41,252 bases of DNA from Methylocystis silviterrae (GTDB lineage: Bacteria > Pseudomonadota > Alphaproteobacteria > Rhizobiales > Beijerinckiaceae): the NCBI RefSeq assembly GCF_013350005.1, contig NZ_JABVWW010000023.1, positions 1-41,252 of the forward strand, written 5' to 3'. The position numbers and the translations under genes were made by a program. The notes below the pieces were generated by a model that saw only the letters and a list, made by a program, of their open reading frames with translations, was not told the DNA's origin and ran no database searches. Within the stretch, counting starts at the first letter, position 1. Each line of letters starts with the position of its first letter. Shown in pieces: positions 16,346-38,964 of this stretch.

Positions 16346-16504
16346 AGCGTTCGTCGTCTGGTCGGTTTACAGGCATTTTCATGATCAATACTGGGCCCAG
16401 CGCCTGCTTCAGGGTCATGCTTGCTTAATCTTAGATCAACTGCCCCTAAAAGTTCGCGTAAGGATTATGCAAAATAATTGCATCGAGAGGAGTGTCGCGC
16501 CGTC

Positions 16505-18819: not shown

Positions 18820-18829
18820 GCAGGTCGCC

Positions 18830-22363: not shown

Positions 22364-23412
22364 GACAGTAGATGCTCGCGCATGCCGTCCGCAATGCGTA
22401 CGCTCGCCTTTCCGTCTCCGTAAAGGGGCCGCCAGGCCGTGGTCGGCTGTCTATCCAGAACCGATTGCAGGGGCTCGGACAATGGGTCCCAAAGCTGGTT
22501 CCAACCGCCCTCGAGGGTTTCTACCCACTCGGTCTCGCTGCGCGCGGTCACGCAAGGCTTTTTGGCCCAATACGACTCCTTCTGGAGGCCGCCAGAGTCG
22601 GTGATCACGCAACTACACGCCTCAAGCGCGGCAAGCATCTCGAAGTACGACAGCGGCGCCACACAGCGCACGTTGGCCGGGAGGTCATTTTGCTTCATTC
22701 GTTCGTCGAGACGTGGATGAACGGGCCAGACGCAGGGAAACCGGAGTTCGCCAAGTGCTTTCACAATGCGCGCGAGCCGCTCGCGATCGTCCGTGTTAGA
22801 TGGCCGGTGGATCGTCACGATCGCGAACGGCGAGCTTCCCGGGAAATGCGGTCGGACAGATTGCTGGGCGACGGGCATGAAGGTCTCGAATGCATCAAGC
22901 ATCACGTCGCCGACATCGATAACCCTCTTTGCGACTCCCTCCCGAGCGAGCTGCTCGACGCCCTGCCCCGAGCTGCAGAACAAAAGGTCCGATAGATGAT
23001 CCACGACGACGCGATTGACCTCTTCCGGCATAGAGCGGTTGAAACTCCTCAGTCCGGCCTCAACGTGTACAATAGGAATAGTTAGCTTGGCCGCCGCCAA
23101 TGCCGCTGCGACCGAGGAGTTGGTGTCGCCATAAACCAGCACGGCCTTGATGCGCCGAGCATGCTCTAGCATGATCTCCTCAAGACCGATCAACATCTGT
23201 GCGGTCTGTTTGGCGTGGGAACCTGATCCGCAAGCGAGGTTGGCAAATACGTTATTGATGCCTAGCTCTCGCAGGAAACGGCCGCTCATCGCATCGTCAT
23301 AATGCTGGCCGGTGTGAACGATCCACTCCTCGATCCCAGCGGCTGAGAATCCGCGTGAGACGACGGCCGCCTTGATAAACTGCGGGCGGGCTCCGACGAC
23401 GCTAATTATCAA
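22360..23412 (-). CDS. wbpI: UDP-N-acetylglucosamine-type 2-epimerase, WbpI
   Basis: This 350-residue enzyme of the WecB/WbpI family is expected to convert UDP-GlcNAc(3NAc)A to UDP-ManNAc(3NAc)A. Family motifs seen are VVGARPQFIKAAVVSR near the start, WIVHTGQHYDDAMS, VLVYGDTNSS, IPIVHVEAGLRSFNRSMPEE and the C-terminal ITDSGGLQKESYWAKKPCVT. The start is TTG at 23412, preceded at 8 bases by AGGAGG. This puts the conserved GARPQFIK at residues 7-14, whereas upstream ATG codons (to 23514) would add unrelated residues overlapping wbpG. WecB-type activity (UDP-ManNAc) cannot be excluded from sequence alone, but the neighbouring wbpG, hisF and hisH favour WbpI. Confidence 0.88.
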   Translation of the reverse strand: MIISVVGARPQFIKAAVVSRGFSAAGIEEWIVHTGQHYDDAMSGRFLRELGINNVFANLACGSGSHAKQTAQMLIGLEEIMLEHARRIKAVLVYGDTNSSVAAALAAAKLTIPIVHVEAGLRSFNRSMPEEVNRVVVDHLSDLLFCSSGQGVEQLAREGVAKRVIDVGDVMLDAFETFMPVAQQSVRPHFPGSSPFAIVTIHRPSNTDDRERLARIVKALGELRFPCVWPVHPRLDERMKQNDLPANVRCVAPLSYFEMLAALEACSCVITDSGGLQKESYWAKKPCVTARSETEWVETLEGGWNQLWDPLSEPLQSVLDRQPTTAWRPLYGDGKASVRIADGMREHLLS

Positions 23413-24592
23413 CGCGCCAGCCTCCTTTCTTGGCGATCGTTGTAATCGGCCTGATCCAGCCCATGAACTCGCGCAGCAATCTGAGATCTCGCTCGTCCGT
23501 GCCGAACTCCTCATGCCGCCGGCCGGGCAGTTTAAGGAGATCCTCGAACTCCGTCCCCGAGAAACCGAGCTTCTTCGCCACGTAAATCTTGTCTTCTTCC
23601 TGAAGCTGTGGATCGTAGGTGGGCTGCTGCAGCTCGGCGAGCGCCTGCTCGCGCGTCATCTGCTGCGATAGGATGAGATTCGACAGATGCGCTCTGCGTT
23701 TATCGATGCCGTACTTTCGCGGGAGGATGTAACCTTGGTAGAAGCGCGTGAAGATCGATTCGTAGTGCTTGCCGCCATAGTCGCGCCAGCCGAGTTCAGA
23801 CATCAGCAGGTCCTTGGCCTCCTGCTTCCTATAGTCGACGAGATCGAGCAACTTGATATCCTGCATGCGGAAGCGCATTTGGTACCAAGCCGACTGCCAC
23901 ACGCCGAGTGCCGGTAGGCGCTTCATCGGCAGCTCGCCGTAGCGGCGGTGGATGCCCTTGATGCTGACGAGATCGAATTTGCGATAGTACCACTCCCGCG
24001 GCAGCAGCCATTCGGTGCGGTGATTGTTACCTGATAGGATGAAGCGGATGCTGTTCTGCCTCGCAACTTTGTAAAGCGCGCCGAAGATCATGTGATCCGT
24101 CGGGACCTCGAGATCGAGCACCGATGCCTTAAAGTACGCGCGCTGCAAATCGCGGAACTCGGGCCAGTCCATCACGAATGTATGTAGCGGTAAGCGCAAC
24201 CGGCGGCAGATCTGCTCGATATTGGAAACGGCAAGCTCGCTGTTCCAACCATTGTCGAAATGGACGAGAAGGGGCCTGAGCCCGAGCTTGACGGCTAGCC
24301 AAGCGAGATAAGAGCTGTCTACGCCGCCACTGAGCCCTAGAATACAATCGTATTTCCTGCCCTGACCATAAGTGCGCAGCCGCTTAACCGTGGCCTCCAG
24401 CAGCGCCGCCCGCGACTCGGCGTTCGGCTGTTTTGCAAGGAAAGCCTGGTGCTCGTGCCAGTAATTCGACACGCCTTCTTCGTCGAAGGTCACCTCGGGG
24501 TCGCTCGTGTCGATGACGAGCTTCGTGCAGATGCGGTACCGCCGACGCGCGCTCCCGGGAATGTCGGTCTCGGCTGGAAATAGGTGCGTCAT
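23402..24592 (-). CDS. wbpG: N-acetyl sugar amidotransferase, WbpG type
   Basis: This ATP-dependent amidotransferase of the WbpG/PseA family is thought to form the acetamidino group at C3 of the mannuronic acid sugar, using ammonia delivered by HisH-HisF. From ATG 24592 (ATGA overlap with hisF) it has 396 residues. The PP-loop SGGVDSS is at 88-94. The family opening ICTKLVIDTSDPEVTFDEEG is at 21-40, and LSGNNHRTEWLLPREWYYRK lies mid-protein. Members normally carry two Cys-x2-Cys pairs around that opening. Here only Cys22 remains (C-T-K-L, then S-N-Y-W), so the presumed zinc site looks lost. All other landmarks are intact. Confidence 0.92.
   Translation of the reverse strand: MTHLFPAETDIPGSARRRYRICTKLVIDTSDPEVTFDEEGVSNYWHEHQAFLAKQPNAESRAALLEATVKRLRTYGQGRKYDCILGLSGGVDSSYLAWLAVKLGLRPLLVHFDNGWNSELAVSNIEQICRRLRLPLHTFVMDWPEFRDLQRAYFKASVLDLEVPTDHMIFGALYKVARQNSIRFILSGNNHRTEWLLPREWYYRKFDLVSIKGIHRRYGELPMKRLPALGVWQSAWYQMRFRMQDIKLLDLVDYRKQEAKDLLMSELGWRDYGGKHYESIFTRFYQGYILPRKYGIDKRRAHLSNLILSQQMTREQALAELQQPTYDPQLQEEDKIYVAKKLGFSGTEFEDLLKLPGRRHEEFGTDERDLRLLREFMGWIRPITTIAKKGGWRVDN
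23410..23427 (-). promoter_or_regulatory. Ribosome binding site and TTG start of wbpI
   Basis: On the minus strand AAAGGAGG is followed by eight bases and TTG at 23412-23410. The site lies inside the last codons of wbpG, whose stop is at 23402, so the two genes overlap by 11 bp. This strong Shine-Dalgarno sequence decides in favour of the TTG over the upstream ATG. Confidence 0.75.
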
Positions 24593-25359
24593 GCCGCGAG
24601 CCTTTTGTACAAGCCCTCGAGCTCGGACTCGGATGGATAAGAGATCAGAACGCCTCGCGCCGCTCCGTGAAAAACGAACATACTGCCCGCTGCGACAGCG
24701 CTGCATCCGGCGTCCGCCACCGCTGCATGGAAATCGTCGAGATCGCGCGCGCCGCCGAGCGCGATCACCGGCACTGCAACGCTGCGCGCGATCGAGGCCA
24801 GCAACGGCACGTCGTAGCCCCGGAACGTGCCGTCACGGTCGACGGATTGCACGATGATTTCGCCCGCGCCGGCCTCGACGGCACGGCGGGCGGCCTGCTC
24901 AGGCGACAATTTTATCTTACCCTTGGAGCCGGTAACCAGGCTAGGGCCGAACATCCCGCGCTTGACGTCGATGCATACGACAACGCTCTGAGCCCCGGAC
25001 TGCCGGGCTGTCTCGCGCACGAGCTCCGGATTCTCATGTGCCGCTGTCGACAGCACGACCTTTTCCAATCCGCAGCGTAACAGCCGTTGGATTTGTGCGG
25101 GGCGCGAAATCCCGCCGCCGTAGCCCACTGGCATGAAAGCCTCACTGGCAACGTCCTCGATCAAGGCGTAGTTGGGCTCACGTCCTTCTCGCGTGGCGTC
25201 AATGTCAAGCAAAATCAGTTCGTCGGCCCCCTTCTCGTTGAAGATGCGCACGGCGTTGATCGGGTCGCCGACGTAGGTGCGGTTGCCGAATTTGACGGTC
25301 TTCACGAGACCGGCAGCGGAGTCGATCAATAGGGTTGGGATGATGCGAAACCGCCGCAT
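24589..25359 (-). CDS. hisF: HisF-like cyclase subunit dedicated to WbpG
   Basis: This (beta/alpha)8-barrel protein of 256 residues starts at ATG 25359, two bases after the hisH stop, with AGGGG upstream. It has the features of the polysaccharide-cluster HisF branch: RIIPTLLIDSAAGLVKTVKF in place of the catalytic RIIPCLDVxxGRVVKG of histidine HisF, then YVGDPINAVRIFNEKGADEL and VGYGGGIS. The first catalytic aspartate of true HisF is not in its usual place, fitting a role as an ammonia-channel partner of HisH rather than a histidine-pathway cyclase. Longer frames to 25515 overlap hisH and are unlikely. It sits in the order hisH-hisF-wbpG, overlapping wbpG by 4 bp. Confidence 0.92.
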   Translation of the reverse strand: MRRFRIIPTLLIDSAAGLVKTVKFGNRTYVGDPINAVRIFNEKGADELILLDIDATREGREPNYALIEDVASEAFMPVGYGGGISRPAQIQRLLRCGLEKVVLSTAAHENPELVRETARQSGAQSVVVCIDVKRGMFGPSLVTGSKGKIKLSPEQAARRAVEAGAGEIIVQSVDRDGTFRGYDVPLLASIARSVAVPVIALGGARDLDDFHAAVADAGCSAVAAGSMFVFHGAARGVLISYPSESELEGLYKRLAA

Positions 25360-25361
25360 CG

Positions 25362-26000
25362 CTAGCGTTCCCCTCGCGCCAGCCCGTGCGTGCGTGCGAA
25401 GTTGTCGAGCAGCTGCTTGCCGAAGCGATGGCTTTTCTCCGGATGGAACTGGACCCCAGCTATGTTGCCGCGCTCTATGCCGGCCACGAATCGGTAGCCG
25501 TGCACGGCGTGGCATAACTCGTCCGTCTCCTCGTCGGCTACGATGTGGTAGGAGTGCACGTAGTAGAAGCGCGGTCTCGGTGCGGCGCCCGCGAACAGCC
25601 CGCTCGAAGCGCGGAACTCTGTGTCGGCCCAGCCCATGTGGGGCACGCGCAGCGAAACATCGAGCCGTGCCTCATCAAACCGCCGCGTATCAGCCGCAAT
25701 CCAGCCGAGACCCGGCTCTGTCCCTTCGTCACTGCCGCGAGTCAGCAGTTGCGCGCCGAGGCAGATGCCGAGCAGCGGGACCTTCTTCTCGAGCGCCATC
25801 TCATCAAGCACCCCGCGCAGATCGAGCTGCTTGAGGCTGCGCATGCCGAAGTCGAAGTGGCCGACCCCCGGCAGGATTAGCGCTGACGCAGTCGCAATTT
25901 CGGCCCGCGCGCTCGTGATGCGTGCGGCGACGCCGAGGCTCCGAAGCATGTTCTGCACCGAGCGTAAGTTCCCGGTGCCGTAGTCGACGATCGTCAGCAT
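25362..26000 (-). CDS. hisH: HisH-like glutamine amidotransferase dedicated to WbpG
   Basis: This 212-residue class I glutaminase starts at ATG 26000. The oxyanion strand region reads LILPGVGHFDFGM, the nucleophile is Cys80 in LGICLGAQLL, and the His186/Glu188 pair is in VQFHPEKS. HSYHI replaces the more common HSY-x-V at the interface. It would release ammonia from glutamine and pass it through the HisF barrel to WbpG. The complete triad shows that it is an active glutaminase. It is the first gene of the hisH-hisF-wbpG-wbpI-GT4 block and follows a 118-bp gap after the FkbM gene. Confidence 0.93.
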   Translation of the reverse strand: MLTIVDYGTGNLRSVQNMLRSLGVAARITSARAEIATASALILPGVGHFDFGMRSLKQLDLRGVLDEMALEKKVPLLGICLGAQLLTRGSDEGTEPGLGWIAADTRRFDEARLDVSLRVPHMGWADTEFRASSGLFAGAAPRPRFYYVHSYHIVADEETDELCHAVHGYRFVAGIERGNIAGVQFHPEKSHRFGKQLLDNFARTHGLARGER

Positions 26001-26118
26001 GGGTCGAGAGTCATTCGCCGCATCGCAACTACTTATCGATGCTCAACTGTCTCTACGACGAATAGCTTTACCAGCAGCGCCTGGTCATGCATTGCCGTCC
26101 AACTGATCATCGGGGCGG

Positions 26119-26994
26119 TCAAGATGCGGAGCAATTCTTCGTTTTTACCGCGGAAGCTAAGGCGTGCACATCGTCCTTCGGACAAAACACATAGTCAGAA
26201 AGCTCGAGGCTGCCGTGAATACCGATCTCTTGAATCTCGGTCAGGCCATGCAGTGCTCCGGACTGCGTTTTGAAGATGCGAAACATGACATATTGCTCGT
26301 CGCGCATCATGGCCTCGATCTTGCGCTGCCTGTCGAGCCTGGCGACATTGTTCGCGGTATAGCAGGGCAGGATCTCGACGATCAGCCACGGCTTGAATTT
26401 GGAGAGTGCGTCACGCATCGAACTTATGACTTCCACCTCGGCACCCTCTACGTCAATCTTGACGAGCCCGAGGTCAGGAAGGGCCACGAACTCCTCTACG
26501 TCGGCAAAGCGCATCACCGGGACGAGCTTGGTCGCGTCAATGGCCTCGCCGGGCCTGAAGCCCTCGACCAATGAGGCCGACGGATCGCTTGTACTGCCAT
26601 GATAGAGTTGCAATTTGCGTAGACCCGTAGCCTCGGCGAGTCCCACCGGGACGATCAGCACATCTGACAATCGATTGACCGCGATCAGTTTCTCGACATA
26701 TGCGACGCACTCGGCATTCGGCTCGAACCCGATGTAGCGGCGGGTCGGATCGGCGGCTTTGACGGCAATCAGCGTCTGACCGATGTTGACGCCGCAGTCG
26801 CAGAACATACCGGCGCGCGCAGGCAGTAGCCGGCCGAGCAGTTCCACCATCCAAGGCTCCGACACATCGCACATGGAGCCGTTGATCATCGGCGTCCGGA
26901 ACACTTGGCCGGAAAGCTCGATGGCTGCCGTGAAAAGACGCTCGTGCCTGGGCAGACGGCGAATTAGCTTCTTGTGTAGTGTCCTAAGTTTCAT
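26119..26994 (-). CDS. FkbM-family methyltransferase
   Basis: With ATG at 26994 the product has 291 residues. MFCDCGVNIGQTLIAVKA is the SAM motif, RRYIGFEPNAECVAYVEKLI is the second motif, and LGLVKIDVEGAEVEVISSMR is the FkbM hallmark. The chosen start overlaps the stop of the preceding methyltransferase (ATGA). A longer frame to 27279 overlaps that gene by nearly 290 bp and is rejected. It is likely an O-methyltransferase for the polysaccharide. It is one of three FkbM proteins in the window, which differ enough to suggest different acceptors. Confidence 0.9.
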   Translation of the reverse strand: MKLRTLHKKLIRRLPRHERLFTAAIELSGQVFRTPMINGSMCDVSEPWMVELLGRLLPARAGMFCDCGVNIGQTLIAVKAADPTRRYIGFEPNAECVAYVEKLIAVNRLSDVLIVPVGLAEATGLRKLQLYHGSTSDPSASLVEGFRPGEAIDATKLVPVMRFADVEEFVALPDLGLVKIDVEGAEVEVISSMRDALSKFKPWLIVEILPCYTANNVARLDRQRKIEAMMRDEQYVMFRIFKTQSGALHGLTEIQEIGIHGSLELSDYVFCPKDDVHALASAVKTKNCSAS

Positions 26995-27935
26995 GATCTC
27001 TTCGCCGGCGTAGATGTGCTCCTCGCGACAGTTTGCAGTCGCGTGAAACGTCCGACGATCCAGTAGCCCGGCGTCGTCTGCCTCGGCCAGCAACGCTTTA
27101 CGAGACCTCTTATTTTGCTGTTTCGCGGGCTGGTGGAGGCGGAGACGGCCGCGGATCGCTGCGCCGGGGTGGAATTTATTTGTGCTTGCTTTTCCTTCTC
27201 CGGGGTGTAGCCGCACAACGGGCAGAGCGGCGACATAAATAGCTCGGACCGATCGGGAACGCCCCGCAGCTTTCGCCATATACTATAATAGGTCCGAAAC
27301 CCCCAGTAGTGTGTGTTTACCACCGGAATTGAACTCTCCTCCATCCGAAATCCGAAATCGGAAAGGAGCTCAGCGAATGTGCTATCGTTGAACGATCGCA
27401 GATGCAGATCGCGATTGAAGACCGTGCGACATTGCGGGCAAGTATCGACTTCCTTCTCAATCGCCTCATTGTAAGGCACGCTGATGATGACAGTATTTTT
27501 GGCGATCCGCGCCAGTTCCGAGAGGGCGTTTTTGTAGTCCCGTACTGTCAGGTGTTCGATCACCTCCAGGCACGACACGCAATCGAATGATTGGTCATCA
27601 AACGGCAAACTAGCAAGCTCGCAGCACATCTTTTCGTCGGCGTCGCGCACTTGCTCTAGAGCGGCTGAGCTGCGGTCGACGCACGTAATCTGGATTGAAG
27701 GGAACTTCTGCCTCACTATCCGGGCAAACACGCCATCGCCGCAGCCGACGTCGATCAGATTGACGCATCCCTCTGGAATGAGCCGCGCAGTGCCCTCGAG
27801 TCGCTTTAGGTCGCTCGGGTCGTCGACTATCCCGTAGCTCCAGAACGACTCGTAGTAGTCAGTCTCGAAAGTCAATTCGCTCGTCCTGTTGAGTGATCGC
27901 TCCCGGCGGAGCGTGGTCCTTACGGATCTTCCCAC
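26991..27935 (-). CDS. Class I methyltransferase with two CxxC knuckles
   Basis: The 314-residue product starts at GTG 27935, sharing one base with the wzx stop. NLIDVGCGDGVF (60-71) is the SAM motif, ITCVDRSSAALEQV is the second strand, and CVSCLEVIEHL (119-129) is typical of Methyltransf_11. Unusually for a small methyltransferase it carries CPQC at 166-169 and CPLC at 238-241, a possible split zinc-binding site. The last 65 residues are basic and low in conservation but end with PGYWIVGRFTR, a pattern I recall from related enzymes. Coupling to both neighbours suggests co-production with wzx and the FkbM enzyme. Confidence 0.83.
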   Translation of the reverse strand: MGRSVRTTLRRERSLNRTSELTFETDYYESFWSYGIVDDPSDLKRLEGTARLIPEGCVNLIDVGCGDGVFARIVRQKFPSIQITCVDRSSAALEQVRDADEKMCCELASLPFDDQSFDCVSCLEVIEHLTVRDYKNALSELARIAKNTVIISVPYNEAIEKEVDTCPQCRTVFNRDLHLRSFNDSTFAELLSDFGFRMEESSIPVVNTHYWGFRTYYSIWRKLRGVPDRSELFMSPLCPLCGYTPEKEKQAQINSTPAQRSAAVSASTSPRNSKIRGLVKRCWPRQTTPGYWIVGRFTRLQTVARSTSTPAKRS

Positions 27936-29494
27936 TATGGCGAAGTCGCAAGCCCCGGTCTGGGGCTCGGCAACATCAACGCTCGCGCCAGCAGAGGTCC
28001 TCCAGGGACCACCTCGAGGAGCTCTGTCAGCTGAGTCGAAAACACGAGGCGCAGCGTGAGAACGTAGGTGGTGGCAAGAAACACACCGTCAAGCATTAGG
28101 CGAAACAGGATTGCAACGTCCTCACGAGGTGACGAGCGCATAGCGAGCGTGACCGCGGCGCCTGCCAAACTGGCCATAGCCGCCGGGACGATGGCCATGG
28201 TCACCCCCTTAGCGGAAACCGCCCCGCGTTGAAGCAGCACCACGATCGTTATGCTTGCGAATGCTAATGCATGCAAAGCGAGGCCGGCGAGATACGCTTT
28301 GGCGCCATATGGCACCAGCAAGAACACCAAGCCGATGGTGGTCACGCCCGCCACTGCGTCGATCGATAACGTGGCTCGACTGTCGTCGTTAGCCAGGAGC
28401 AGGCCCGACAGCGTGTTCCAGGCGCCGACCATTCCCGTCGCCATAGCGGCGTACGGCAAGAGCGGTACGACGCTCTCCCACTTCGTGCCGTAGAGGAGCA
28501 ACACAGTGTCGTTTGCGGTCAACGCGAGGAACGCCACCACCGGCATCGTCGTCCAGCATACGCCGCGCAAAACGAGGCTCGCGAGCCGCTGAAACCGCTC
28601 GGAGGCGCGCTCCGCCCGGGTAAGGACCGGGTGCAGCGCCGTAACGGTGGTCGCGCCAATCCGCCCAGCCAACAATACGGCGAGCCCGTTGGCGCGGGTG
28701 AAGATGCCGAGAGTGGCAACGTCGTAGATGTCGCTGACGAGTATGTTCTCGCTGAGGGCACGGGCGCGGCCAAACAGGCCGGAACCTATGCGATCCAACG
28801 CGAACCGTACGGTGGCCCGGTAGCGGGCCCAGCTCCACGTCCAGTCCGGCCTGAAGCGCTGCAAGACGAGCAAATCGAAGGCCGCAGGCAGTCCCAGCAT
28901 TGGTGGCTGCAGGATGAGCGCCCAAACTCCGCCGCCAAGCAGCGCGACGGCTAGCCCCACGGCCATTCCCAGCAGTGTTCCAATGATGAGCTGGACGCGG
29001 AAGCGCTTCCAGTCGTGATTGGCCTCAAGCATGCGGGCGCGTAGCGTCGCGGGAATCTCCAAGAGCAAGACAATCCCGAGCGCCGCGAGCGGAAGCGCCG
29101 CATCGCGGTAGGTTGCTGTGAACGTCAACCCAAATGCGAGCAGAAGCACTACGCCGAACAAAAGAGTATTGATCACGGCCGCGGCCGTGAAGTGGGCTTG
29201 CCAATCGATGCTTTCGGGATTTCGGATCTGCAGTGCGTGCAGGGAAAAGGTCGAATACGAAACTATCGACACCGCGCCGATGATCGATTGGACGAAGGCG
29301 GCCGTGCCATAGTCCGTAGGGCTCAATATCCGCACGAGGATCAGCATCACGCCGAACTGCGCCACGTCGCGTAGCAGAGTGAAGCCGCCACCCCACAGCA
29401 ATGACGCCCGCGCGGAGTGGCCGAGACCTTGCGCTTTAACAGGCGCAGAGAGTGGCTTCGCCGGCTCCAACAAATTACGAATCTCCCACCGCAA
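27935..29494 (-). CDS. wzx: Wzx-like flippase (lipopolysaccharide/O-unit translocase)
   Basis: This protein of about 519 residues has some twelve or more hydrophobic segments and the MVF/polysaccharide-transporter layout: SLLWGGGFTLLRDVAQFGVM, then LVRILSPTDYGTAAFVQSI, and the mid-protein RIGSGLFGRARALSENILVS. It would flip the lipid-linked repeat unit to the periplasm. The LSPTDYGTAA segment is the commonest signature of this family (LxPxDYGxxA). The start is uncertain. TTG at 29494 overlaps the preceding stop by 20 bp. TTG at 29473, with GGGAG upstream, is also plausible. It lies between methyltransferase genes rather than beside the wzy-like gene. Confidence 0.9.
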   Translation of the reverse strand: MRWEIRNLLEPAKPLSAPVKAQGLGHSARASLLWGGGFTLLRDVAQFGVMLILVRILSPTDYGTAAFVQSIIGAVSIVSYSTFSLHALQIRNPESIDWQAHFTAAAVINTLLFGVVLLLAFGLTFTATYRDAALPLAALGIVLLLEIPATLRARMLEANHDWKRFRVQLIIGTLLGMAVGLAVALLGGGVWALILQPPMLGLPAAFDLLVLQRFRPDWTWSWARYRATVRFALDRIGSGLFGRARALSENILVSDIYDVATLGIFTRANGLAVLLAGRIGATTVTALHPVLTRAERASERFQRLASLVLRGVCWTTMPVVAFLALTANDTVLLLYGTKWESVVPLLPYAAMATGMVGAWNTLSGLLLANDDSRATLSIDAVAGVTTIGLVFLLVPYGAKAYLAGLALHALAFASITIVVLLQRGAVSAKGVTMAIVPAAMASLAGAAVTLAMRSSPREDVAILFRLMLDGVFLATTYVLTLRLVFSTQLTELLEVVPGGPLLARALMLPSPRPGLATSP

Positions 29495-30233
29495 CGCCGC
29501 GACTTACCACGGTCATCAACCCATTGGTGGTCACCTTGAATTCATCGAATTCAGAGCCGACGTGCTGCGGAAGATTTCCATAGTCTTCGATGAAGTAGAC
29601 GAACCGGTCCGCCAAATGTGGCCGCACCGACCGCCAAGTCATCACAATCGCGTCAAGCGAGTGAAGCCCGTCGTCGATCACAACGTCTAATTTGGCGCCC
29701 TTCAGGATGTCCCCAAGCGCCGCTCCGCCGTCGACCAGCTGATCATACTCATGCACTTCAGGCGTCGTGCGCTGAAAGGCGCGACGTTGAATGAGTCGCG
29801 GCCGATTCTCTTCGAAGTGACTGAGATCGATATCGAAGCCCAGCACGCGCGCGTCGGCGAACAGATCGCACCAGATTGCGAGGCCGGTGCCCCTGAGAAT
29901 GCCAAATTCTGCGACGGTCAGGCCCGCTCGGCCGATGAACGGCGTCAAGAAGCGAGAGTAGGTTGCGCCATAGCCGTGATGCAGCATCCGGTCTCCGCCG
30001 GTCATGCCGCCAAATGCTAACTGTTCGGGCGTGCGCCCGTCGAGCGAACTGACGCGGCGGCGCGTGACGTTGGTGACAAAGCCACCGTAATACGCCTCGC
30101 GTTGAATGAGCCAGTCTCGGCTGCCAAGAGGCGGCCTCCGGAGCAGATAGGGCAGCTCGACGAGCCGTGTGCGTGCAGTCTCGACCATCCGGCGAACCGG
30201 GCGAAGCCTCTTGCGAATGGCTTTGAACGACAT
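29475..30233 (-). CDS. SAM-methyltransferase-like protein
   Basis: This 252-residue protein starts at ATG 30233. TVAEFGILRGTGLAIWCDLF is a SAM-type motif, VLGFDIDLSHFEENRP is the second strand, and LDVVIDDGLHSLDAIVMTWR resembles the D-D-G-x-H motif of the CmcI/Methyltransf_24 group. The YYGGFVTNVTRRRVSSLDGR and FGGMTGGDRMLHHGYGATYS segments before the SAM motif recur in uncharacterised polysaccharide-cluster enzymes. It lies 10 bp after the AsnB-like gene, with GGGAAG upstream. It is probably an O-methyltransferase, but the acceptor is unknown. Confidence 0.75.
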   Translation of the reverse strand: MSFKAIRKRLRPVRRMVETARTRLVELPYLLRRPPLGSRDWLIQREAYYGGFVTNVTRRRVSSLDGRTPEQLAFGGMTGGDRMLHHGYGATYSRFLTPFIGRAGLTVAEFGILRGTGLAIWCDLFADARVLGFDIDLSHFEENRPRLIQRRAFQRTTPEVHEYDQLVDGGAALGDILKGAKLDVVIDDGLHSLDAIVMTWRSVRPHLADRFVYFIEDYGNLPQHVGSEFDEFKVTTNGLMTVVSRGVAVGDS

Positions 30234-30243
30234 GGATTCTTCC

Positions 30244-32109
30244 CTACGTCGCCACTACTGTTGCAAGGGATGGCAGCAAAGCCCGCTTCCGACGCGCTTC
30301 GCATTCGCGCCAATGGCATAGCAATGTCATCAGGCGAAACAATTGATTGCCATCATTTCGCCAAACCTCAATGGGGCGTGACCAGTGGTCAGTTCCGGTG
30401 ATCAGCTCCATCCGGCACCGCTCCTCGGGCGAAATGCTATTCCACAAGCGCCGCAGCGTCTGACTGTGCACCGCGTACCAACCATAGTCTGGCCACGAAC
30501 CGCTTGGGGGCGGTCGGTCTTCCGGCATCGGCGGAGCCGGCGCAGCGCGCTTAAGGCGGCGTCCGAACCAGCCCGTCGCAAACACGATAGTTTTTTCGAG
30601 CGAACCGGCATCGACGCGCCAACCCCAATTCGCGTCGACAATCCGCCCAGCACCGGCGCAGATGCGTGCGGCGGACTTGCCCCACGCCTGACGATTCAGC
30701 TTCCAATCTGGATGCAGCCGACTATAGCAGTCCGCAACACGCGAATCGGCGAAAAACGTGTCGTACGGGAAGATACGATACATGATCTGGCCTGAGACTG
30801 AGACCGTGTAGCAAGCCGGCCGAATGCGACGATCCTCGACGAGCAGCCTGTCGCGCGGCGTCGCCAACCTATCGGGGCAGCCTGCGAACCACGCGTCCAT
30901 CCGCGCGTTGATGTCCTTGGCGAGAGCCGGCGGCGCCGGCAGCGGGACATTCGGCAAAAACCCCTCGCGACGGTGGTCGACATAGCGCAGAAAGGGCAAG
31001 CTTCTGCCAAGCAGCGGCACGTGCTCCTTCTCCATGCCGTAGCCCTTAAACACCCAATCTGTCGTGCAGGCGGTCATAACCAGATCTGGATCAAACTCGG
31101 CCAGACGCGCCTCCATGCCAGGATAGTGGCTATCCTCTGCCGACCACATGGCGCCTGACCAGCGTGCAATTTCAGGAAGATTACGGGGGTAATAGTCGTT
31201 GTCGCGTTGCAGGGCGATGAATTTGGCGCCGGCTGTCGCGCACAGGGCGCGCGCGATTTCGGTCTCCTGTTGCGCGTGTTCGAAGATGTTGACGCCCGCA
31301 ATCTTGTTGCGATCTTCCGTGCTGAACAGCATGACGCGTGAGTCGGCGCCCCCGCTTATGAAGAACAGCGGACGCTGAGCAATTGCCGTTCGCTCCGCGA
31401 TCGCGGATCTGACCGCCGCCGACAACGCATCAGCCGCTTCATCAATTGACGCGTAGAACGGCTGCTCAAACGGCGTCCAATAGGTCGAAGTCGAGATTTT
31501 GCTGGGGCGCAGCGCGACGGTGATGCATGTCGCGGCGCCAGCGTATTTCACCTCGTTGAAATAGGTGTGCGGAGGAGTCGTGCGCCAAGCGCGAACAAAT
31601 TCCGCCATCGACACGTGATCGTAAGTAACGGAGGCGTTCGGGTCTGCAAGCAGCGCGTCCGGGAATGTCGTGATGATGCAGTCGGATGGGCTGTCGCTCC
31701 GATAAATGAAGCACGGATGATAGCCGAACTGATCCGTATAGACGTGATGGTCTTCAGACCGAGGATCATGGACGACCACGATGGTCGAGCCGTTGTAGGG
31801 CGCAACGCCGTCTACGCCGCTTTCCAAATACCGCTCGAGCAGAAGGCGCGGCCCGAGCCCGCCCTCATAGGGCAATCCCTCGGCCCGAGCCCAATCGTGC
31901 GCCGACCAAGCCAGATGACCGGAGCAGATCACGCGCACGCCCGTCGCAGGATCATATGCAGGCCCGAACCTCCGCTGGTTCCGCCCGACCCACAGAAAAC
32001 CGCCCGAGCCCGATCTGATAATCGCAGTGTCGACTTCGCGCGCGATCTCTCGCGCGACGGATTTCAACCGCGCCTCGCTGATGTCGCGGGGGGAGTAGTA
32101 CAGCGACAT
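30244..32109 (-). CDS. Asparagine-synthetase-like protein lacking the glutaminase cysteine
   Basis: The 621-residue product starts at ATG 32109. The C-terminal half has the ATP pyrophosphatase loop ISGGADSRVM (251-260) and later motifs of the Asn_synthase domain. The N-terminal half resembles a GATase type 2 fold in its later part (STIVVVHDPRSEDHHVYTDQ, about 108-127), but the protein begins MSLYYSP, with no Cys2 nucleophile. It therefore cannot hydrolyse glutamine in the usual way and, like beta-lactam synthetase, may catalyse an ATP-dependent condensation or use another amine or free ammonia. The clustered methyltransferases on both sides suggest a sugar-linked substrate such as a uronic acid. 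I do not assign a reaction. Confidence 0.82.
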   Translation of the reverse strand: MSLYYSPRDISEARLKSVAREIAREVDTAIIRSGSGGFLWVGRNQRRFGPAYDPATGVRVICSGHLAWSAHDWARAEGLPYEGGLGPRLLLERYLESGVDGVAPYNGSTIVVVHDPRSEDHHVYTDQFGYHPCFIYRSDSPSDCIITTFPDALLADPNASVTYDHVSMAEFVRAWRTTPPHTYFNEVKYAGAATCITVALRPSKISTSTYWTPFEQPFYASIDEAADALSAAVRSAIAERTAIAQRPLFFISGGADSRVMLFSTEDRNKIAGVNIFEHAQQETEIARALCATAGAKFIALQRDNDYYPRNLPEIARWSGAMWSAEDSHYPGMEARLAEFDPDLVMTACTTDWVFKGYGMEKEHVPLLGRSLPFLRYVDHRREGFLPNVPLPAPPALAKDINARMDAWFAGCPDRLATPRDRLLVEDRRIRPACYTVSVSGQIMYRIFPYDTFFADSRVADCYSRLHPDWKLNRQAWGKSAARICAGAGRIVDANWGWRVDAGSLEKTIVFATGWFGRRLKRAAPAPPMPEDRPPPSGSWPDYGWYAVHSQTLRRLWNSISPEERCRMELITGTDHWSRPIEVWRNDGNQLFRLMTLLCHWRECEARRKRALLPSLATVVAT

Positions 32110-32117
32110 CGCCCGAC

Positions 32118-32702
32118 CTACCGCTTCTTCAACACAGTCAGGGAATCCTGCTGGTTCAAGATCTCGAAACGCGGATCGTGCCGGATGAAATCGCGAAAAT
32201 ATTCAATGCTGCCGAGCGTGTAACCGGGCGGCTTCTCTGGCGTCAGTACCGTGTCGTGCAAGGCGACAATGCCGCCTGGCGCCAAACGTTCGCTCCAATA
32301 GGCCCAGTCAGCCTTGATGCCGTCGAGCGAATGATCGCCGTCGACGAATACAAAGTCGACCGGCGTCGGCACATCTCCATCGACTTCCGTGCTCAGCTTG
32401 GACACGAAGCGGACTTTGTTAGCGAGATACTTACCATTGTAACTGCGCGCAATCCGTTCTCCCCAGGAGATGCCGAAGCGGCCCGCGAAGAACGGATCGA
32501 TCCCATATATTACTGCGTCTGCGTCGGCTCGCTCTGCAAGCATGCGCGTCGTGCGGCCCTCGAACACGCCGATCTCGACGATACGCTTTGCTCCCGGCAG
32601 GAAACTTGCCAGCAGTTCGCGCTCGGCGGCCGTGGTCTGTGTCTGCGGCTCATCAATGCCGAGCATGACCTTCGTATAATGCAGTGCTGAACGTCCAATC
32701 AC
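32118..32702 (-). CDS. Class I methyltransferase (Methyltransf_24 type)
   Basis: This 194-residue protein (GTG start at 32702) has AKRIVEIGVFEGRTTRMLAE as SAM motif, AVIYGIDPFFAGR as second strand, and VDFVFVDGDHSLDGIKADWA, the hallmark D-G-D-H of the Methyltransf_24 group. GGIVALHDTVLTP follows. An internal ATG at 32666 (MLGIDEPQTQTT) is possible, but the preceding residues also look conserved. It is 8 bp upstream of the AsnB-like gene and probably co-transcribed with it. Its target is likely a sugar or linked group of the polysaccharide, and nothing in the sequence fixes it. Confidence 0.85.
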   Translation of the reverse strand: MIGRSALHYTKVMLGIDEPQTQTTAAERELLASFLPGAKRIVEIGVFEGRTTRMLAERADADAVIYGIDPFFAGRFGISWGERIARSYNGKYLANKVRFVSKLSTEVDGDVPTPVDFVFVDGDHSLDGIKADWAYWSERLAPGGIVALHDTVLTPEKPPGYTLGSIEYFRDFIRHDPRFEILNQQDSLTVLKKR

Positions 32703-32917
32703 GCACGTCCTCCGACTACTGCCGATTCTGCATCAATCATCAGAAGCGTTTGAATTGTAGGCGTTCGTCTGCGATTTGGCGGCACAGCCGACTCGAGCTC
32801 GACCATTCTTGTACTGCGCGAGATGAGATTGGCGGCGCCCTGCGCAACTGCGCCAAATCCGCGCCAGACATGCATTGTTCCAGCCGAAAAACAGCCGATG
32901 AGCGTTTCGTTGCGCAA
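32699..32917 (-). CDS. Possible small ORF of unknown function (72 codons)
   Basis: A minus-strand frame starts with TTG at 32917, directly after the stop of the GT4 gene. It ends in a TGA that overlaps the following methyltransferase GTG (GTGA). I recognise no domain. The middle contains GFGAVAQGAANLIS and the end is Ala/Val-rich. Exact abutment on both sides is the only support, and the initiator TTG lacks a clear ribosome binding site. It may instead be spacer DNA or the remnant of an earlier gene. Confidence 0.3.
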   Translation of the reverse strand: MRNETLIGCFSAGTMHVWRGFGAVAQGAANLISRSTRMVELESAVPPNRRRTPTIQTLLMIDAESAVVGGRA

Positions 32918-34045
32918 CTAGACGAGGCCCGGCGCTACGTTAGAGAGCGCTGCCGCGAGGCGCTTTTCAAAATTCGCGAATGAGAAGTAGTCGAGGCCCG
33001 GCGGAATCGCCTTCGGCCGCGAGAGGGCGTCGAGGATCGCCCGTTCAAGGGAATCGGCGTCTTTTGGATCGACGAGCAGACCGAGTTCGCCGTTGCGGAC
33101 GGCCTCGCGGGTTCCGTCCTTCGTGCTCGCCACGACAGGAATGCCGCAGGCCAGCGCTTCCACAACGACGAATCCAAAGCCCTCCCAGCGGCTCGGCATG
33201 ATATAGGCATCCGACAAACGGAAATGATCGGCCTTCCGCGATTCAGAGAACCGGCCAGTAAAAACCACTCGATCGGCGACGCCGAGCGACTGGGCTTTCG
33301 CTTCCAGTCGCATGCGGTCGCCGCCATCGCCCGCACATAGGTACACAATTGCTGGTTCCCGCTCTGCCAAACGCGGCAAAAGCTCGATGATCTCGTCGAA
33401 GCCCTTCGCGCGCTCGTTCGGATCCATGCGGCCAAGGGTCATGATAACGCGCCGACCGGCCAAACGATATCTGGCAAGAAGATCCTCGGCTTTGTTTCCC
33501 ATGCCGTAGTCCGCGGCGCGAATTGCGTTCGGCACGATCGCAAGCTCGGCCCGTAAGGGCTTGGCCCAACTTTTGAAACGATCCAGCGTGAGCTGACTGA
33601 TCGAAATCACGACGTCGACGCATGCAAGCGCAGCGCGAGTTAGCGCGCTGGGCGGCTTCGACCAAGCATCGATGCCGTAAATCGCAAGAACAAGCGGACG
33701 CCGCCGGATCTTGGTGATCGAGGCGGCAAGGGGGAGCAGATTCAAGTGCGCGCAGTAAACAAGGTCGTACGACCCGCGGAAGAGCCCCTCGCGCAAGCTG
33801 CAGAAAATAAACTTCAACAGGACGCCACTGGCGGAACGCACATACCGGGTCTTTGGCGGCGAAGCGAACTCCGGCGACGAGATGATTCGCGGCACGACGG
33901 TGATTTCCGCGACCGATGGCAATCCCGAAAGCGCGTCGATAACGTCGCGATTATACTGCGCGATGCCGCCGAAGCCACCGTGGGCGTCGGTTGCTAGCAT
34001 AAGAATACGCAATCCACCTTGCCCGCTGTCACGATCTGATTGCAT
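32918..34045 (-). CDS. GT4-family glycosyltransferase
   Basis: From ATG 34045 the product is about 375 residues. LRILMLATDAHGGFGGIAQY opens a GT-B fold with the glycine-rich GGFGG acceptor loop. LVLAIYGIDAWSKPPSA, VISISQLTLDRFKSW and IVPNAIRAADY are linker-region motifs. The donor domain has VIMTLGRMDPNERAKGFDEI and the E-x7-E motif in SRWEGFGFVVVEALACGIPV. The frame extends to 34108, but the extra part looks unrelated and overlaps an unidentified frame. It lies at the end of a 386-bp gap after the AsnB gene, and its donor and acceptor are unknown. Confidence 0.91.
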   Translation of the reverse strand: MQSDRDSGQGGLRILMLATDAHGGFGGIAQYNRDVIDALSGLPSVAEITVVPRIISSPEFASPPKTRYVRSASGVLLKFIFCSLREGLFRGSYDLVYCAHLNLLPLAASITKIRRRPLVLAIYGIDAWSKPPSALTRAALACVDVVISISQLTLDRFKSWAKPLRAELAIVPNAIRAADYGMGNKAEDLLARYRLAGRRVIMTLGRMDPNERAKGFDEIIELLPRLAEREPAIVYLCAGDGGDRMRLEAKAQSLGVADRVVFTGRFSESRKADHFRLSDAYIMPSRWEGFGFVVVEALACGIPVVASTKDGTREAVRNGELGLLVDPKDADSLERAILDALSRPKAIPPGLDYFSFANFEKRLAAALSNVAPGLV

Positions 34046-34431
34046 CAGGATTCGCAGCTCATTTCTCGGCAACCAGAAGTGAACCCATGTGCAAGCACCG
34101 TTGGTCATGGCTCGCCACGGTCGACGGTAAAGTGCGCTCGAGGAACGCCTTCTTACGACCGAGCGGCAACGGGATAACGTCGTTTTTCAGAACGCAGATA
34201 CGAATCGGTTTGACATGAATAATCCGCTGCTTAAGGCGCCACTCTGCCGGAGTGTAAAGCCATCGGACTGACCTCCCCCACGATTTCTTCGCGCTTTTCC
34301 ATGAGGCAAGCTCAGCTTCGTTTGATGGCAACTGCGTCGGGCGCTGGATACCATCAACCTTGCTCGAGAAGTTCTGCCCTTTGAAGTTGGGCTGCGATTC
34401 CTTGGATGAACGATTCATGGTGATGACTTTG
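34046..34431 (-). other. Gap with an unidentified 119-codon frame
   Basis: Between asnB and the GT4 gene the minus strand holds an open frame from ATG 34418 to 34059, with a central WKSAKKSWGRSVRWLYTPAE and a basic, proline-containing tail. I do not recognise it. It overlaps the extended form of the GT4 gene, has no clear ribosome binding site and is more AT-rich than its neighbours. It may be a small unknown gene or a fragment of a lost one. No other feature is visible in the gap. Confidence 0.35.
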
Positions 34432-36281
34432 TCACACAGCCAGAGCTTGCTCGAAGTATACCGACGACTGCCGTCGCCCCACCTCCCGCGCCCATCCACG
34501 CGTATACCCATAAGCCGACGTCCGCTTGCCGAGCGTCACGCTAGGGCTTACGCGCGCGAGCCACGCGCCCACGGGAACTCCGAAACCCGTCTTGCCCCGT
34601 TGAATGACGCTCGAAGGCAGCGGCGCCGAAGGGGCCAGCGCCAGCTCGGCTTTGGCTTGACCGTCCGTATCAGGCGGGCCAAGGGCGGCGATCTGCTTCA
34701 GCAACACAGCGTCGACCAGAGGCGTCCTGACTTCGAGGGAATGTGCCATGCTCGCCCAGTCCGCGTCGCGCAGGAGCTGATTGCGCATGTAGAGTGAAGC
34801 TTCCATGCACGCGACCCGCGCGAAACCCGTCGCGGGCGTGGGGTTGAGGGCGGCGCCGATGATCGCAAGCGGAGTCAAGCGAGATAATCCGGCGCTTACA
34901 ATATCGCGATCGAGAACGCCCTCCAACTCCCACGGCATAAAGAGTCCCCGCCTGAGCAGCCAGGCGCCTTCGTAGGTTCCGCCATATTCCAGCATGCCCG
35001 CGACCTTGGGGCTGAGGTGAAAGTGGTCGGGACCGACAGCCATTAAGGCGCCGCGAACGAATTCGCCGAGACCGGGAATCGCCGCCGGCGCGGACAACCA
35101 CCGGACCCATTTTGGAATGTCGCGGAACGCTGGATAGCCGCCCAGCAGTTCGTCGCCGCCGATCCCGGAGATCGCCACTTTCAGGCCTCTCTCTCGCGCA
35201 GCCTTCGACACAAACCACATGTTGACGCCATCGACGCTAGGTTGGTCCATAGCATCCAGGATGTGGGGAAGGTCCGCGTCGAATTCGGCCTTCGTGACCA
35301 CACGCGTCGTGTGCCGCGTGCCGTAAGCCCGCGCAACTTCTTCAGCGATCGGCGCCTCGTCATTGGCGCTGCCTTCAAACTCTTTGAAAGCAAGTGTTAC
35401 CGTCTCGATTTCGCTCTGGCCGACGTCGCGCATCAAGCCAACGAGCGCACTCGAGTCGATACCGGCGGACAGAAATGCCCCGACCGGCACGTCGGCGACG
35501 AGATGATGCCGTACGCTATCAAGCAGCGCCTCACGCGCCACCGCTTGCCGCGCTTGTCCCGTCGCCTGCGGCATCGTCTCGGCGCCCACGTAGACCTCGG
35601 CTATGGAGTAATAGCTCCGCAGCGAACCAACTCCGGCCGCGTTGATGCTCATCATGTGGCCAGCGGGAAGTGCCTTGATCTGTTCATAGAGCGTCAATGG
35701 CTCAGGCAGGCTGCCGAATAAATAAAAACCGACATGGCCGGCTGGGTCGCTTCTATCGTCGATGCCGCCTCCAGCGAGCAGCGCTTTGACCTGCGAGGCA
35801 AATCGGAACGTCCGCCCGTCATCAGCGTAGTACAGCGGCTTGATGCCGTAGGGGTCACGGGCAAGGAAAAGCTCGCGCCGATTGCAATCCCAGATCGCGA
35901 AGGCGAACATTCCGCGTAGGTCGTACACCATCTCTTGGCTCTTCTCGGCGTAGAGATGCAGGAGAACCTCTGTGTCCGACGTGGTCCGGAATACATACCC
36001 CTTTGTTTCGAGCCGACATCTAAGCTCGCGATAGTTGTAGATCTCGCCGTTGAACGTGACAACGAGCGCACCATGGGCGTTCGACATGGGTTGCGCGGCC
36101 CCGTCTGATAGATCGATGATCGACAATCGCCGATGGCCGAAGCCGACCCGACCGTTGTCGGAGATCCACTCTCCCTTCCCATCCGGGCCGCGCGCGGCCA
36201 TGTGATCGCGCGTCCGCGCGAGTTCTGCGAGGTCGATCGGGTTAGCCTCGCGATAGGCGAGGATTCCGTTGATGCCGCACA

Positions 36282-36282
<1 letters not shown>
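34432..36282 (-). CDS. asnB: Glutamine-dependent asparagine-synthetase-type amidotransferase
   Basis: This 616-residue protein has the complete AsnB layout. Cys2 (MCGINGILAY) is the glutaminase nucleophile. RGPDGKG (31-37), RLSIIDLSDGAAQPM (52-66) and FNGEIYNY (77-84) form the glutamine pocket. The synthetase loop LSAGIDSSAL is at 271-280, followed by ISGIGGDELLGGYPAF. In polysaccharide clusters such proteins (WbpS-like) amidate uronic acids to uronamides, which is a better guess than free asparagine synthesis. The start shares one base with the galE stop (TAATG). The C-terminal segment after about residue 560 is basic and divergent. Confidence 0.9.
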
Positions 36283-37301
<1,019 letters not shown>

Positions 37302-37328: not shown

Positions 37329-38189
37329 TCAAACAGCAACGCCCGCCACTTGCCGATATGCCGCGGTTTTTAGCCGCGCGTTGATCTGATCCAGGCGAAC
37401 AAACAGCGTATTGGGCGAGGAAGCCGAGTTGCCGGACGAGCCATGTGAAACGATTGACCTTTCGAAGGGCATATAAGCGGCGCTAACGAAGCCATGTTTC
37501 TCCATGACTGATCGAATCGTTGGATCAACTGTCTCCGTGATCACGGCAACAAGGGACGTCTTCATGAGGGTGTCAGAGGCGCCAGCGAAGACTTGTGGCT
37601 CGTAGCCCTCGACATCCATCTTGATCAAAACCGGGTCTTCCTTGGCCAAAATTTCGTCGAGGACGCGAACCGCGACCTCGCGAGTCTCAAAACTGGTATC
37701 GGCAGTCACCCGATTGGTCGTGTCCTGGCCAATCGTGAAGCGCTCCGTTCCCGCCGCAGCGCCAACGGCCGCCTCGATGATGGTCACGCGGTCGCCTATG
37801 CGATTGGCGTCAATGTTTCTCTTGAGCGATTGAACCGTGCCGGGGTCGGGCTCGATCGCAATCGAGCGAGCGCCGCACACCGCCGAAGCAAGAATCGTAT
37901 AGCTGCCGATGTTGGCCCCCACGTCGACGAACAGATCCCCTGGCCGCAGAAGGTGCAAGAGGAAAGCCATGTCCGTGAACTCATGAAGCCCACAATAGAT
38001 GTTGCCCGTTGCGCCGGCCATGCCGTTTCGTGCGACGAGCTTCGATCCTGCGATCCAATCGAAGACGACCTCATCGCGCAATCGACTCTCAAGCTGCCAA
38101 CGCACGTACCGCCAATAGGCGCCGAGTAGTCCTCGGGAGCTCAGCGGGTGGCGCGCGATGAATTGGAGGGTGGGAACGATCGACCGCAT
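37329..38189 (-). CDS. FkbM-family methyltransferase, first gene after the ops site
   Basis: The 286-residue product starts at ATG 38189. LFVDVGANIGSYTILASAVC (86-105) is a textbook FkbM SAM motif, SIAIEPDPGTVQSLKRNIDA is the second motif, and VLIKMDVEGYEPQVFAGA is the family hallmark. It is likely to O-methylate a sugar hydroxyl of the polysaccharide. It is the first coding sequence of the long unit that follows the ops element, with an untranslated leader of about 97 bases between ops and its start codon. Its stop is 27 bp from galE. Confidence 0.92.
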   Translation of the reverse strand: MRSIVPTLQFIARHPLSSRGLLGAYWRYVRWQLESRLRDEVVFDWIAGSKLVARNGMAGATGNIYCGLHEFTDMAFLLHLLRPGDLFVDVGANIGSYTILASAVCGARSIAIEPDPGTVQSLKRNIDANRIGDRVTIIEAAVGAAAGTERFTIGQDTTNRVTADTSFETREVAVRVLDEILAKEDPVLIKMDVEGYEPQVFAGASDTLMKTSLVAVITETVDPTIRSVMEKHGFVSAAYMPFERSIVSHGSSGNSASSPNTLFVRLDQINARLKTAAYRQVAGVAV

Positions 38190-38243: not shown

Positions 38244-38286
38244 GCCAATGAACCTATGCGAACTCAAAAAAGAAATCCTTGCTCGC

Positions 38287-38298
38287 CACGCTACCGCC
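38287..38298 (-). promoter_or_regulatory. ops element (operon polarity suppressor), exact GGCGGTAGCGTG
   Basis: The plus strand reads CACGCTACCGCC, so the minus (transcribed-sense) strand carries GGCGGTAGCGTG, identical to the 12-base E. coli ops consensus. In enteric bacteria RNA polymerase pauses here and RfaH binds the exposed non-template strand, becoming a stable antiterminator. The site is in the sense orientation for the downstream operon, about 98 bases upstream of its first start codon and about 160 bp after the stop of the RfaH-like gene. By eye I found no second copy in the window. Confidence 0.85.
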
Positions 38299-38454
38299 AT
38301 TCGGGTGAAGGCGCGCCTCCATCCGCTATCGTGCCGATGACGCCCCGCCTATCGCGCGACGCTTATCCTTGACGAGCTTACGGCGAAGGCGGACCAAATC
38401 GCTCCATAGCGCCGCCGCCCGCGAACATTCGAGCCCGCTTGCTCGCCTGCTCGC

Positions 38455-38964
38455 TTAAGCCGCTTCCAGGGCGGAGCGGTCCAAATAGGCCGATACTTTA
38501 CCGTTCATGATGTCCAATAGCACACGCACACGTCCATTGGCATCCAATCGTTCCAACACGCCTACGGCATGGGTGAAAGGACCCGCCAAGACGCGCACCG
38601 ATTGACCTTCGCACAGATCGCGGTCGAAACGGATCAGCCCATCTTCATCCACGAGGTCGAGCAGACTTTCAACGACGCCCACCGGAACTGGCACAGGCGC
38701 TTCTCCTTGCATGATCAAGCTGGCGACGCCGATGGTGCCATTGATGCTTCGCCAACGGTCTCGCCCAATGTCGAGCGCGACGAACATGTAGGAGGGGAAG
38801 ACCGGAGTAGGCGCGGTGCGCAGTTTTCGCGCGTGGCGAATCGTCTTCATGACTCGGGGCAGAAAGACTGAAAAGCCTTGCTGAAGGAGCTGAAATTCCG
38901 CTCTCGACTCCTGTCGCGGCAATGAGCGAGCCACATACCACTTCTTGCAGCTTTCAAAAGGCAT
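38455..38964 (-). CDS. rfaH: RfaH-type NusG paralogue (transcription antiterminator)
   Basis: This 169-residue protein has a NusG N-terminal domain (about 8-105: KKWYVARSLPRQESRAEFQL, then VFPSYMFVALD and WRSINGTIGVASLIM) and a C-terminal KOW-like domain (about 118-166: GQSVRVLAGPFTHAVGVLER and VRVLLDIMNGKVSAYLDR). The FPSYMFV and SINGTIGV motifs correspond to FPNYLFV and TINATRGV of RfaH. ATG 38964 has GGAG six bases upstream. It probably binds RNA polymerase at the ops element just downstream and suppresses polarity over the polysaccharide genes. That it is RfaH rather than another specialised paralogue such as LoaP or UpxY is supported by the exact ops match. The surrounding gaps suggest its own transcript. 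Confidence 0.88.
   Translation of the reverse strand: MPFESCKKWYVARSLPRQESRAEFQLLQQGFSVFLPRVMKTIRHARKLRTAPTPVFPSYMFVALDIGRDRWRSINGTIGVASLIMQGEAPVPVPVGVVESLLDLVDEDGLIRFDRDLCEGQSVRVLAGPFTHAVGVLERLDANGRVRVLLDIMNGKVSAYLDRSALEAA

Follow-up and report, generated by a model that had tools for sequence, protein, structure and literature searches.

We propose that the minus strand of a 41,252-nucleotide stretch of the Methylocystis silviterrae genome (contig NZ_JABVWW010000023.1, the whole of which is referred to here as the window) encodes an RfaH-like factor that is loaded in cis at a hairpin-ops pause and serves the polysaccharide gene cluster downstream, a reading which we consider probable. An exact-match search of the window placed the ops 12-mer GGCGGTAGCGTG, with zero mismatches, at 38287-38298 on the minus strand. 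The parts on which the proposal draws are the following.

38455..38964, minus strand: RfaH-like NusG paralogue of 169 aa with NGN and KOW domains (open reading frame; TIGR01955 and Pfam NusG scores)
38302..38325, minus strand: predicted RNA hairpin, 9 pairs around 1 mismatch, loop of 4 (fold -11.6 kcal/mol)
38287..38298, minus strand: ops element, identical to the E. coli 12-mer (exact match; core kept in relatives)
38286..38330, minus strand: complete hairpin-ops leader element (covariance model R2, E 1.8e-7)
37329..38189, minus strand: FkbM-family methyltransferase, first gene after the element (family model matches)
1318..37301, minus strand: collinear polysaccharide cluster, the presumed target transcript (open reading frame list and Pfam)

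The preliminary description had placed an exact ops just downstream of an RfaH-like gene and ahead of a unit of roughly 37 kb, and the spacing agrees with this: the stop of the paralogue is followed by 156 nt, the ops element and a further 97 nt before the start of the FkbM methyltransferase, from which minus-strand genes continue to about position 1318, giving a cluster of about 37 kb. The 1318..37301 region encodes GalE, an asparagine-synthase-like protein, glycosyltransferases, a flippase, a UDP-GlcNAc 2-epimerase, a DegT aminotransferase and a UDP-sugar dehydrogenase, and polysaccharide, sugar or methyltransferase families make up the majority among the 27 cluster reading frames scanned against Pfam. 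The contig ends where the window ends, so the transcription unit may extend further. No sigma-70-like promoter was found within 38150-39400. A Wzy_C/O-antigen ligase-like gene (39284-40678) lies upstream on the same strand, 319 nt ahead of the paralogue, and a HisF-like gene is present at 24589-25515 within the cluster; a HisF-like gene with a HisH-like partner is typical of acetamidino-sugar synthesis.

According to the favoured reading, the paralogue would be an operon-specific RfaH-type elongation factor, encoded at the start of the very transcription unit on which it acts. Once RNA polymerase had moved past the paralogue gene, the RNA hairpin would fold and the enzyme would pause at ops, where the non-template strand would expose the GCGGTAGC core. 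Freshly made factor could then bind at the paused ops, displace NusG and ride with the polymerase through the polysaccharide cluster, preventing early Rho termination. We infer this series of events, from a shared transcript through pausing and binding to the exclusion of NusG and antitermination, from the arrangement and conservation of the sequences set out below.

Conservation of the arrangement was examined in a set of 61 genomes, those of M. silviterrae and its relatives, in which a homologue of the paralogue was found at a threshold of E 1e-8 in 24 genomes and at 27 places. These places together with L034 make up 28 homologue loci, one of which (L030) has only 70 nt of downstream sequence. 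Seventeen of the 28, the window included, carry the core GCGG[TC]AGC downstream of the gene and in its orientation, at a distance of 57-197 nt; on the other strand of these 400 nt it occurs at 0 of the 28. Four homologue loci bear names, two being Methylocystis MAGs, one an alphaproteobacterial MAG and one Roseinatronobacter. Genome G034 gave three homologue matches. Six loci from the same genus as the window (L013, L014, L017, L019, L021 and L028) have no recognisable ops behind the paralogue, and such factors may recognise a different site or work in trans.

A wider set of 385 alphaproteobacterial genomes was searched with a profile of the paralogue, which returned 92 matches of at least 100 bits and, after a gap, matches of at most 84 bits that are ordinary NusG by score. 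Ninety of the 92 were fetched with their surroundings (the exceptions being G242 and G386, the latter at a contig end), three of them with less than 300 nt downstream. A search of the 400 nt downstream gave the core GCGG[TC]AGC in the orientation of the gene at 33 of these 90 paralogues, the window being one of the 33, compared with 3/90 on the opposite strand downstream, 3 and 5 on the two strands upstream, and a mean of 2.4 (largest 7) in 200 shuffles. The reversed core was found downstream at 8/90 on the same strand and 15/90 on the opposite one, and upstream at 12 and 6, so the background of a GC-rich 8-mer may exceed the shuffle estimate and some single core matches may be due to chance. 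Fifty-seven of the 90 lack an ops core right behind the gene. Covariance models and a relaxed hairpin scan, judged by eye, gave altered or displaced elements for 12 further paralogues: altered cores behind the gene (L134 and L194), an element 1.2 kb downstream (L201), and elements on the opposite strand, as for a divergent operon (L156, L167, L169, L177, L178, L180 and L184). In the other two of the 12, L172 (2419-2466, minus strand) and L190 (same strand as the gene), the element precedes the paralogue, a position that would suit the leader of that gene, with the factor serving its own transcript. No credible element was seen in the fetched stretch for 45 of the 90, and a search for shared 9-, 10- and 12-mers gave no convincing second conserved site among the paralogues without an adjacent ops. 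Viral contigs yielded no relative.

The leaders in which ops adjoins the gene have in common an RNA hairpin immediately before the element, which is new here and goes beyond the preliminary description. Forty-eight adjacent leaders were compared, 33 from the class set and 15 from the relatives (16 of the 17 relative-set loci with a core were used); a 49th, L026, with its core 76 nt behind the gene and a weak hairpin of -5.0 kcal/mol, is absent from all counts of 48. When the most stable fold was taken from the 40 nt upstream, the hairpin ended 0-5 nt before G2 of ops and contained 6-12 pairs, with a mean z of -2.3 against mononucleotide shuffles and 42/48 leaders below -1; the pairing at L126 is long-range and unconvincing. 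The 3' arm often reads CACCCG, and in the window it falls within the conserved TTCACCCG just upstream of ops. The pairs below it vary and compensate, one column holding C-G 23, T-A 10, T-G 9 and A-T 1 times and another G-C 14, C-G 9 and T-G 1 times, although these column pairs arise partly by construction because they were taken from each sequence's own fold.

Independent evidence for the hairpin is the arm-swap test. Exchanging 5' arms among the 48 loci changed the summed folding energy from -618.8 to -431.7 (sd 13.7, 100 swaps; z -13.7), and the difference held for the 33 class loci (z -9.4, 200 swaps) and for the 39 loci left after similar ones had been dropped (z -10.4, 200 swaps). The thinned test upholds the hairpin across loci, its two arms changing together. 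At the AT-rich loci L198-L201 a stem of unrelated sequence occupies the same place. The window hairpin itself folds no better than shuffles (-11.6 kcal/mol, z -0.1), and its 3' part pairs equally well with the 5' arms of 10 out of 47 other loci, so the case for it comes from the family as a whole. When RNAalifold was run on the ungapped alignment A2, the only two pairs predicted lay within the ops core; the upstream hairpin was missed because loop lengths vary among loci. A reading of the hairpin as a terminator was rejected, as no T run stands behind it; two terminator-like sites (shuffles mean 1.6) lie further upstream. Elsewhere in the phylum, a hairpin and ops were seen by eye behind an RfaH-type gene at 4 of 13 loci (L210, L215, L216 and L217), their stems being unrelated both to that of JUMPstart and to the alphaproteobacterial one, which hints that the hairpin-ops combination is phylum-wide.

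According to PMC5995543, E. coli RfaH uses K10, H20, R23 and R73 to read G5 and T6 of ops, and the window protein has L, Q, Q and I at these positions, so the E. coli mode of recognition cannot be transferred contact by contact. Across the 48 ops-linked proteins, position 10 is Q in 20, L in 13, H in 6, R in 4 and K in 2; position 20 is N in 20, H in 17 and Q in 9; position 23 is R in 23 and N in 10; and position 73 is R in 14, I in 13 and F in 9. The E. coli residue is accordingly kept at these four positions in 2/48, 17/48, 23/48 and 14/48, and K10 is commoner in paralogues without an adjacent ops (19/66) than in those with one (2/48). Conserved in the ops-linked proteins are Q24 (46/48), T72 (47/48) and G74 (47/48), but all three are also kept in most paralogues without an adjacent ops, and positions 24 and 72 partly in NusG. 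Position 67 is R in 39/48 ops-linked proteins and in 52/66 without an adjacent ops, and T in 8/14 RfaH-type rows. Either these bases are read by a different set of residues, then, or the signal works in another way. The positions involved in RfaH autoinhibition (the E48-R138 pair, I93 and F130) are changed in part: the window has T, R, V and L at 48, 138, 93 and 130, glutamate stands at position 48 in 4/48 ops-linked proteins and 5/14 RfaH-type rows, and arginine at 138 in 46/48 ops-linked proteins and also in 14/14 NusGs. Free RfaH has an alpha-helical KOW domain, and an AF2 model of the window protein from a five-sequence alignment gave a beta KOW, at low confidence (pLDDT 61.7, pTM 0.49).

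LoaP is loaded by reading a nascent RNA hairpin, and the factor in the window, or some other protein, might do likewise, the ops core then being mainly a pause sequence. Compensating changes preserve the hairpin as its sequence diverges, and the base-contact residues of E. coli are missing, both of which suit such a mechanism. We nevertheless regard it as unlikely, since the LoaP model gives the window protein 50 bits only and since stem sequences that vary as they do at L198-L201 fit a structural role better than specific reading of the RNA. Furthermore, PMC5995543 assigns the central ops bases in E. coli to RfaH and not to pausing, yet GCGGTAGC is what recurs in these leaders.

The link between element and factor was also examined away from the paralogue gene. 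A DNA pattern derived from the leaders of the relatives, CACCCGNNNNGCGGTAGC, was searched over the 385 genomes and occurred at 47 places in 43 genomes; since its reverse matched 25 times, chance surely accounts for some of these places. In membership tallied by hand from the match lists, the paralogue is present in 37 of the 42 genomes with the pattern (M. silviterrae excluded) against 88 of 384 overall (Fisher p 7e-22). Thirty of the places include 17, the window among them, at which a paralogue ends 43-210 nt upstream on the same strand, and the remaining 17 include 2 with a paralogue right upstream. This leaves 28 of 47 without a paralogue right upstream, and ten of these, having a good element and no paralogue in the fetched stretch, were chosen by eye. 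Eight of their first genes had a Pfam match and two had none, the families being DegT aminotransferase (3), polysaccharide biosynthesis/epimerase (2), ABC transporter (2) and cytidylyltransferase (1). Ten further genes near other gene-distant places comprised an epimerase, oxidoreductases, methyltransferases, a radical-SAM protein and a flippase, with three lacking a match. Behind the adjacent elements, of which 10/32 were sampled, 8 first genes belong to nucleotide-sugar, glycosyltransferase or transporter families and 2 to none. Element and paralogue share a single contig about 3.4 kb apart in G358 and about 8.7 kb apart in G443; they are on different contigs in G075, G073 and G398, which are draft assemblies, so that distance is not proven there. 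Given these placements, the alphaproteobacterial factor may act both in cis and in trans.

The association also bears on a reading in which the leader signal works independently of the factor, as a hairpin-aided pause, a processing site or an attenuator, and the two are neighbours through shared membership of a cluster. A hairpin with a pause-like sequence is a known pause design. Shared membership accounts poorly for the excess of the paralogue among genomes with the pattern, which takes in the kilobase-apart cases of G358 and G443, and the lack of a T run after the hairpin also speaks against this reading, which we judge to be very improbable.

The paralogue is best described by the RfaH model among the NusG-family models, with 92.0 bits against TIGR01955, but this is below the equivalog cut-off of 144.5; UpxY (66.5 bits, cut-off 100), LoaP (50.0 bits, cut-off 125) and NusG (49.4 bits) score lower, and the Pfam NusG match is 60.8 bits. 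The genome has one other PF02357 match, an ordinary NusG on another contig. In a quick tree of 142 proteins with SH-aLRT supports, 14 NusGs are split from all paralogues and RfaH with a support of 100, while deep forks on the side of the paralogues and RfaH have low supports (e.g. 26, 7 and 71). A first tree with one NusG had nested RfaH inside the alphaproteobacterial family; it was not relied on. The pairing of an RfaH-like factor with ops in the preliminary description holds. The best-scoring model and the position on the RfaH side of the NusG split agree with it, and the tree does not place the protein away from RfaH. By its sub-cut-off score and its replaced base-contact residues, the protein is nevertheless no strict RfaH.

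Two explanations had been offered for an ops of this kind in an alphaproteobacterium, namely an RfaH-ops mechanism that spans a deep divide or horizontal transfer of the pair, and the evidence favours the first, as the pair recurs throughout the class and is not an isolated transfer. Acquisition from enteric bacteria in particular would explain why the exact 12-mer equals that of E. coli, and homologues of the paralogue do occur on 67 plasmid records (Mesorhizobium, Bradyrhizobium, Sulfitobacter and others). On plasmid MesoLj131b2 of Mesorhizobium sp. 131-2-5 a NusG-family gene is followed by a hairpin-ops and then by a nucleotide sugar dehydrogenase gene; among the five plasmid loci examined of the 67 records this one is clear, L204 and L206 are probable, and L202 and L205 have no convincing element. 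Four of these five loci adjoin polysaccharide genes or are unannotated. The window protein, however, shares only 26% identity with E. coli RfaH across 158 columns, and related elements and paralogues are found class-wide with a stem unlike that of JUMPstart, so that we give enteric transfer hardly any weight. These comparisons are most simply explained by common descent of factor and element, with separate origins and transfers also possible.

The 3,853,673-base genome contains a single exact copy of GGCGGTAGCGTG and five of the reversed pattern. One copy is in itself unremarkable, because a first-order model expects 0.65 genome-wide, but the same model expects 2e-5 in the 265-nt gap that holds ops. 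With at most one mismatch, 28 places match ops and 77 the reversed pattern, so ops-like words are without genome-wide enrichment. Covariance model R2, which was built from seven Methylocystis-type leaders of relatives with the window leader excluded, recovered the window element at E 1.8e-7, the next match in the genome being at E 0.15; with one significant match, M. silviterrae seems to hold a single target. Model R1 did not recover the window element at E <=1. That the 12-mer is a chance match can be dismissed, even with 0.65 copies expected per genome, on the gap expectation and on the conservation of the element at the homologous place in relatives. The view of the preliminary description that chance was very unlikely at exactly this place was thus borne out, and the many unrelated genomic matches that it had feared did not appear.

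The system in the window shares with RfaH-ops/JUMPstart of E. coli (RF01707) a NusG paralogue, an identical ops 12-mer and polysaccharide targets, and like the waaQ and rfb leaders of E. coli K-12 it belongs with hairpins that end close to ops, 2 nt before G2 in the case of those two leaders. It differs in having the factor gene immediately before the presumed target, in the replacement of K10, H20, R23, R73 and the autoinhibition residue E48, and in the sequence of the hairpin. JUMPstart is listed for gammaproteobacteria, with a conserved stem-loop, in Weinberg et al. 2010. An Rfam scan of 16 leader loci, the window included, gave no JUMPstart match at E up to 10 and three other weak matches; at the gathering score, rfb and waaQ of E. 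coli match JUMPstart with 60 and 55.2 bits, while the window (L004) and a Mesorhizobium locus (L203) are unmatched. In the literature searched, which took in few subscription papers, we found no report of an ops or hairpin element in Alphaproteobacteria, and a single paper, Wang et al. 2020, that brings together RfaH, ops and Alphaproteobacteria. What the window encodes is best described as a variant of RfaH-ops with an operon-encoded factor, a leader with a covarying stem and changed reading residues.

Factor genes in or beside envelope or other long operons are likewise described for UpxY, TaA, LoaP and the RfaH clusters CL2-CL8 in Wang et al. 2020 (PMC7593976), where 18% of rfaH genes are alphaproteobacterial, recruitment of these paralogues is called unknown and E. 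coli RfaH is the sole detailed case; here ops is the candidate site. The putative monomorphic beta-RfaH proteins of PMC13015549 are also encoded beside long operons and thought to act in cis, and the window KOW is modelled as beta too, at low confidence, but they reportedly behave like an ops-independent variant, whereas the window keeps ops beside the gene. The occurrence of the same pair before sugar-coat operons in many alphaproteobacteria makes the recruitment system look wider than the E. coli picture. More tentatively, it is possible that factors of the RfaH lineage are recruited throughout Pseudomonadota by hairpin-ops, with the enteric JUMPstart as one local form; that operon-encoded factors used it before autoinhibition, fold switching and trans action had evolved; that ops reading arose early, through contacts other than K10 and R73; and that the nascent hairpin is a working part of the signal. 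The finding bears on the order of RfaH evolution put forward in PMC7593976, in which ops contacts and autoinhibition arise late and together. A mechanistic point concerns the E. coli ops pause, called biochemically distinct from the hairpin-stabilised pause in PMC11001881, since natural elements keep a hairpin close to ops despite this distinction. As operon-encoded NusG paralogues are widespread, the element is a candidate for the site at which factors of a large alphaproteobacterial group are recruited and, being searchable, would predict the operons served by each factor, also away from its own gene.

The base composition of the 48 adjacent leaders, whose lack of variation at ops positions 2-5 and 7-9 follows from how they were searched for, shows T in 43 and C in 5 at position 6, T in 39/48 at position 11 and TG at positions 11-12 in 28/48, the exact 12-mer being present in 7/48. 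The loci with C6 are L127, L146, L159, L015 and L029; at this position E. coli RfaH takes a flipped-out T into its pocket, and these variants could be matched with residues of the factor.
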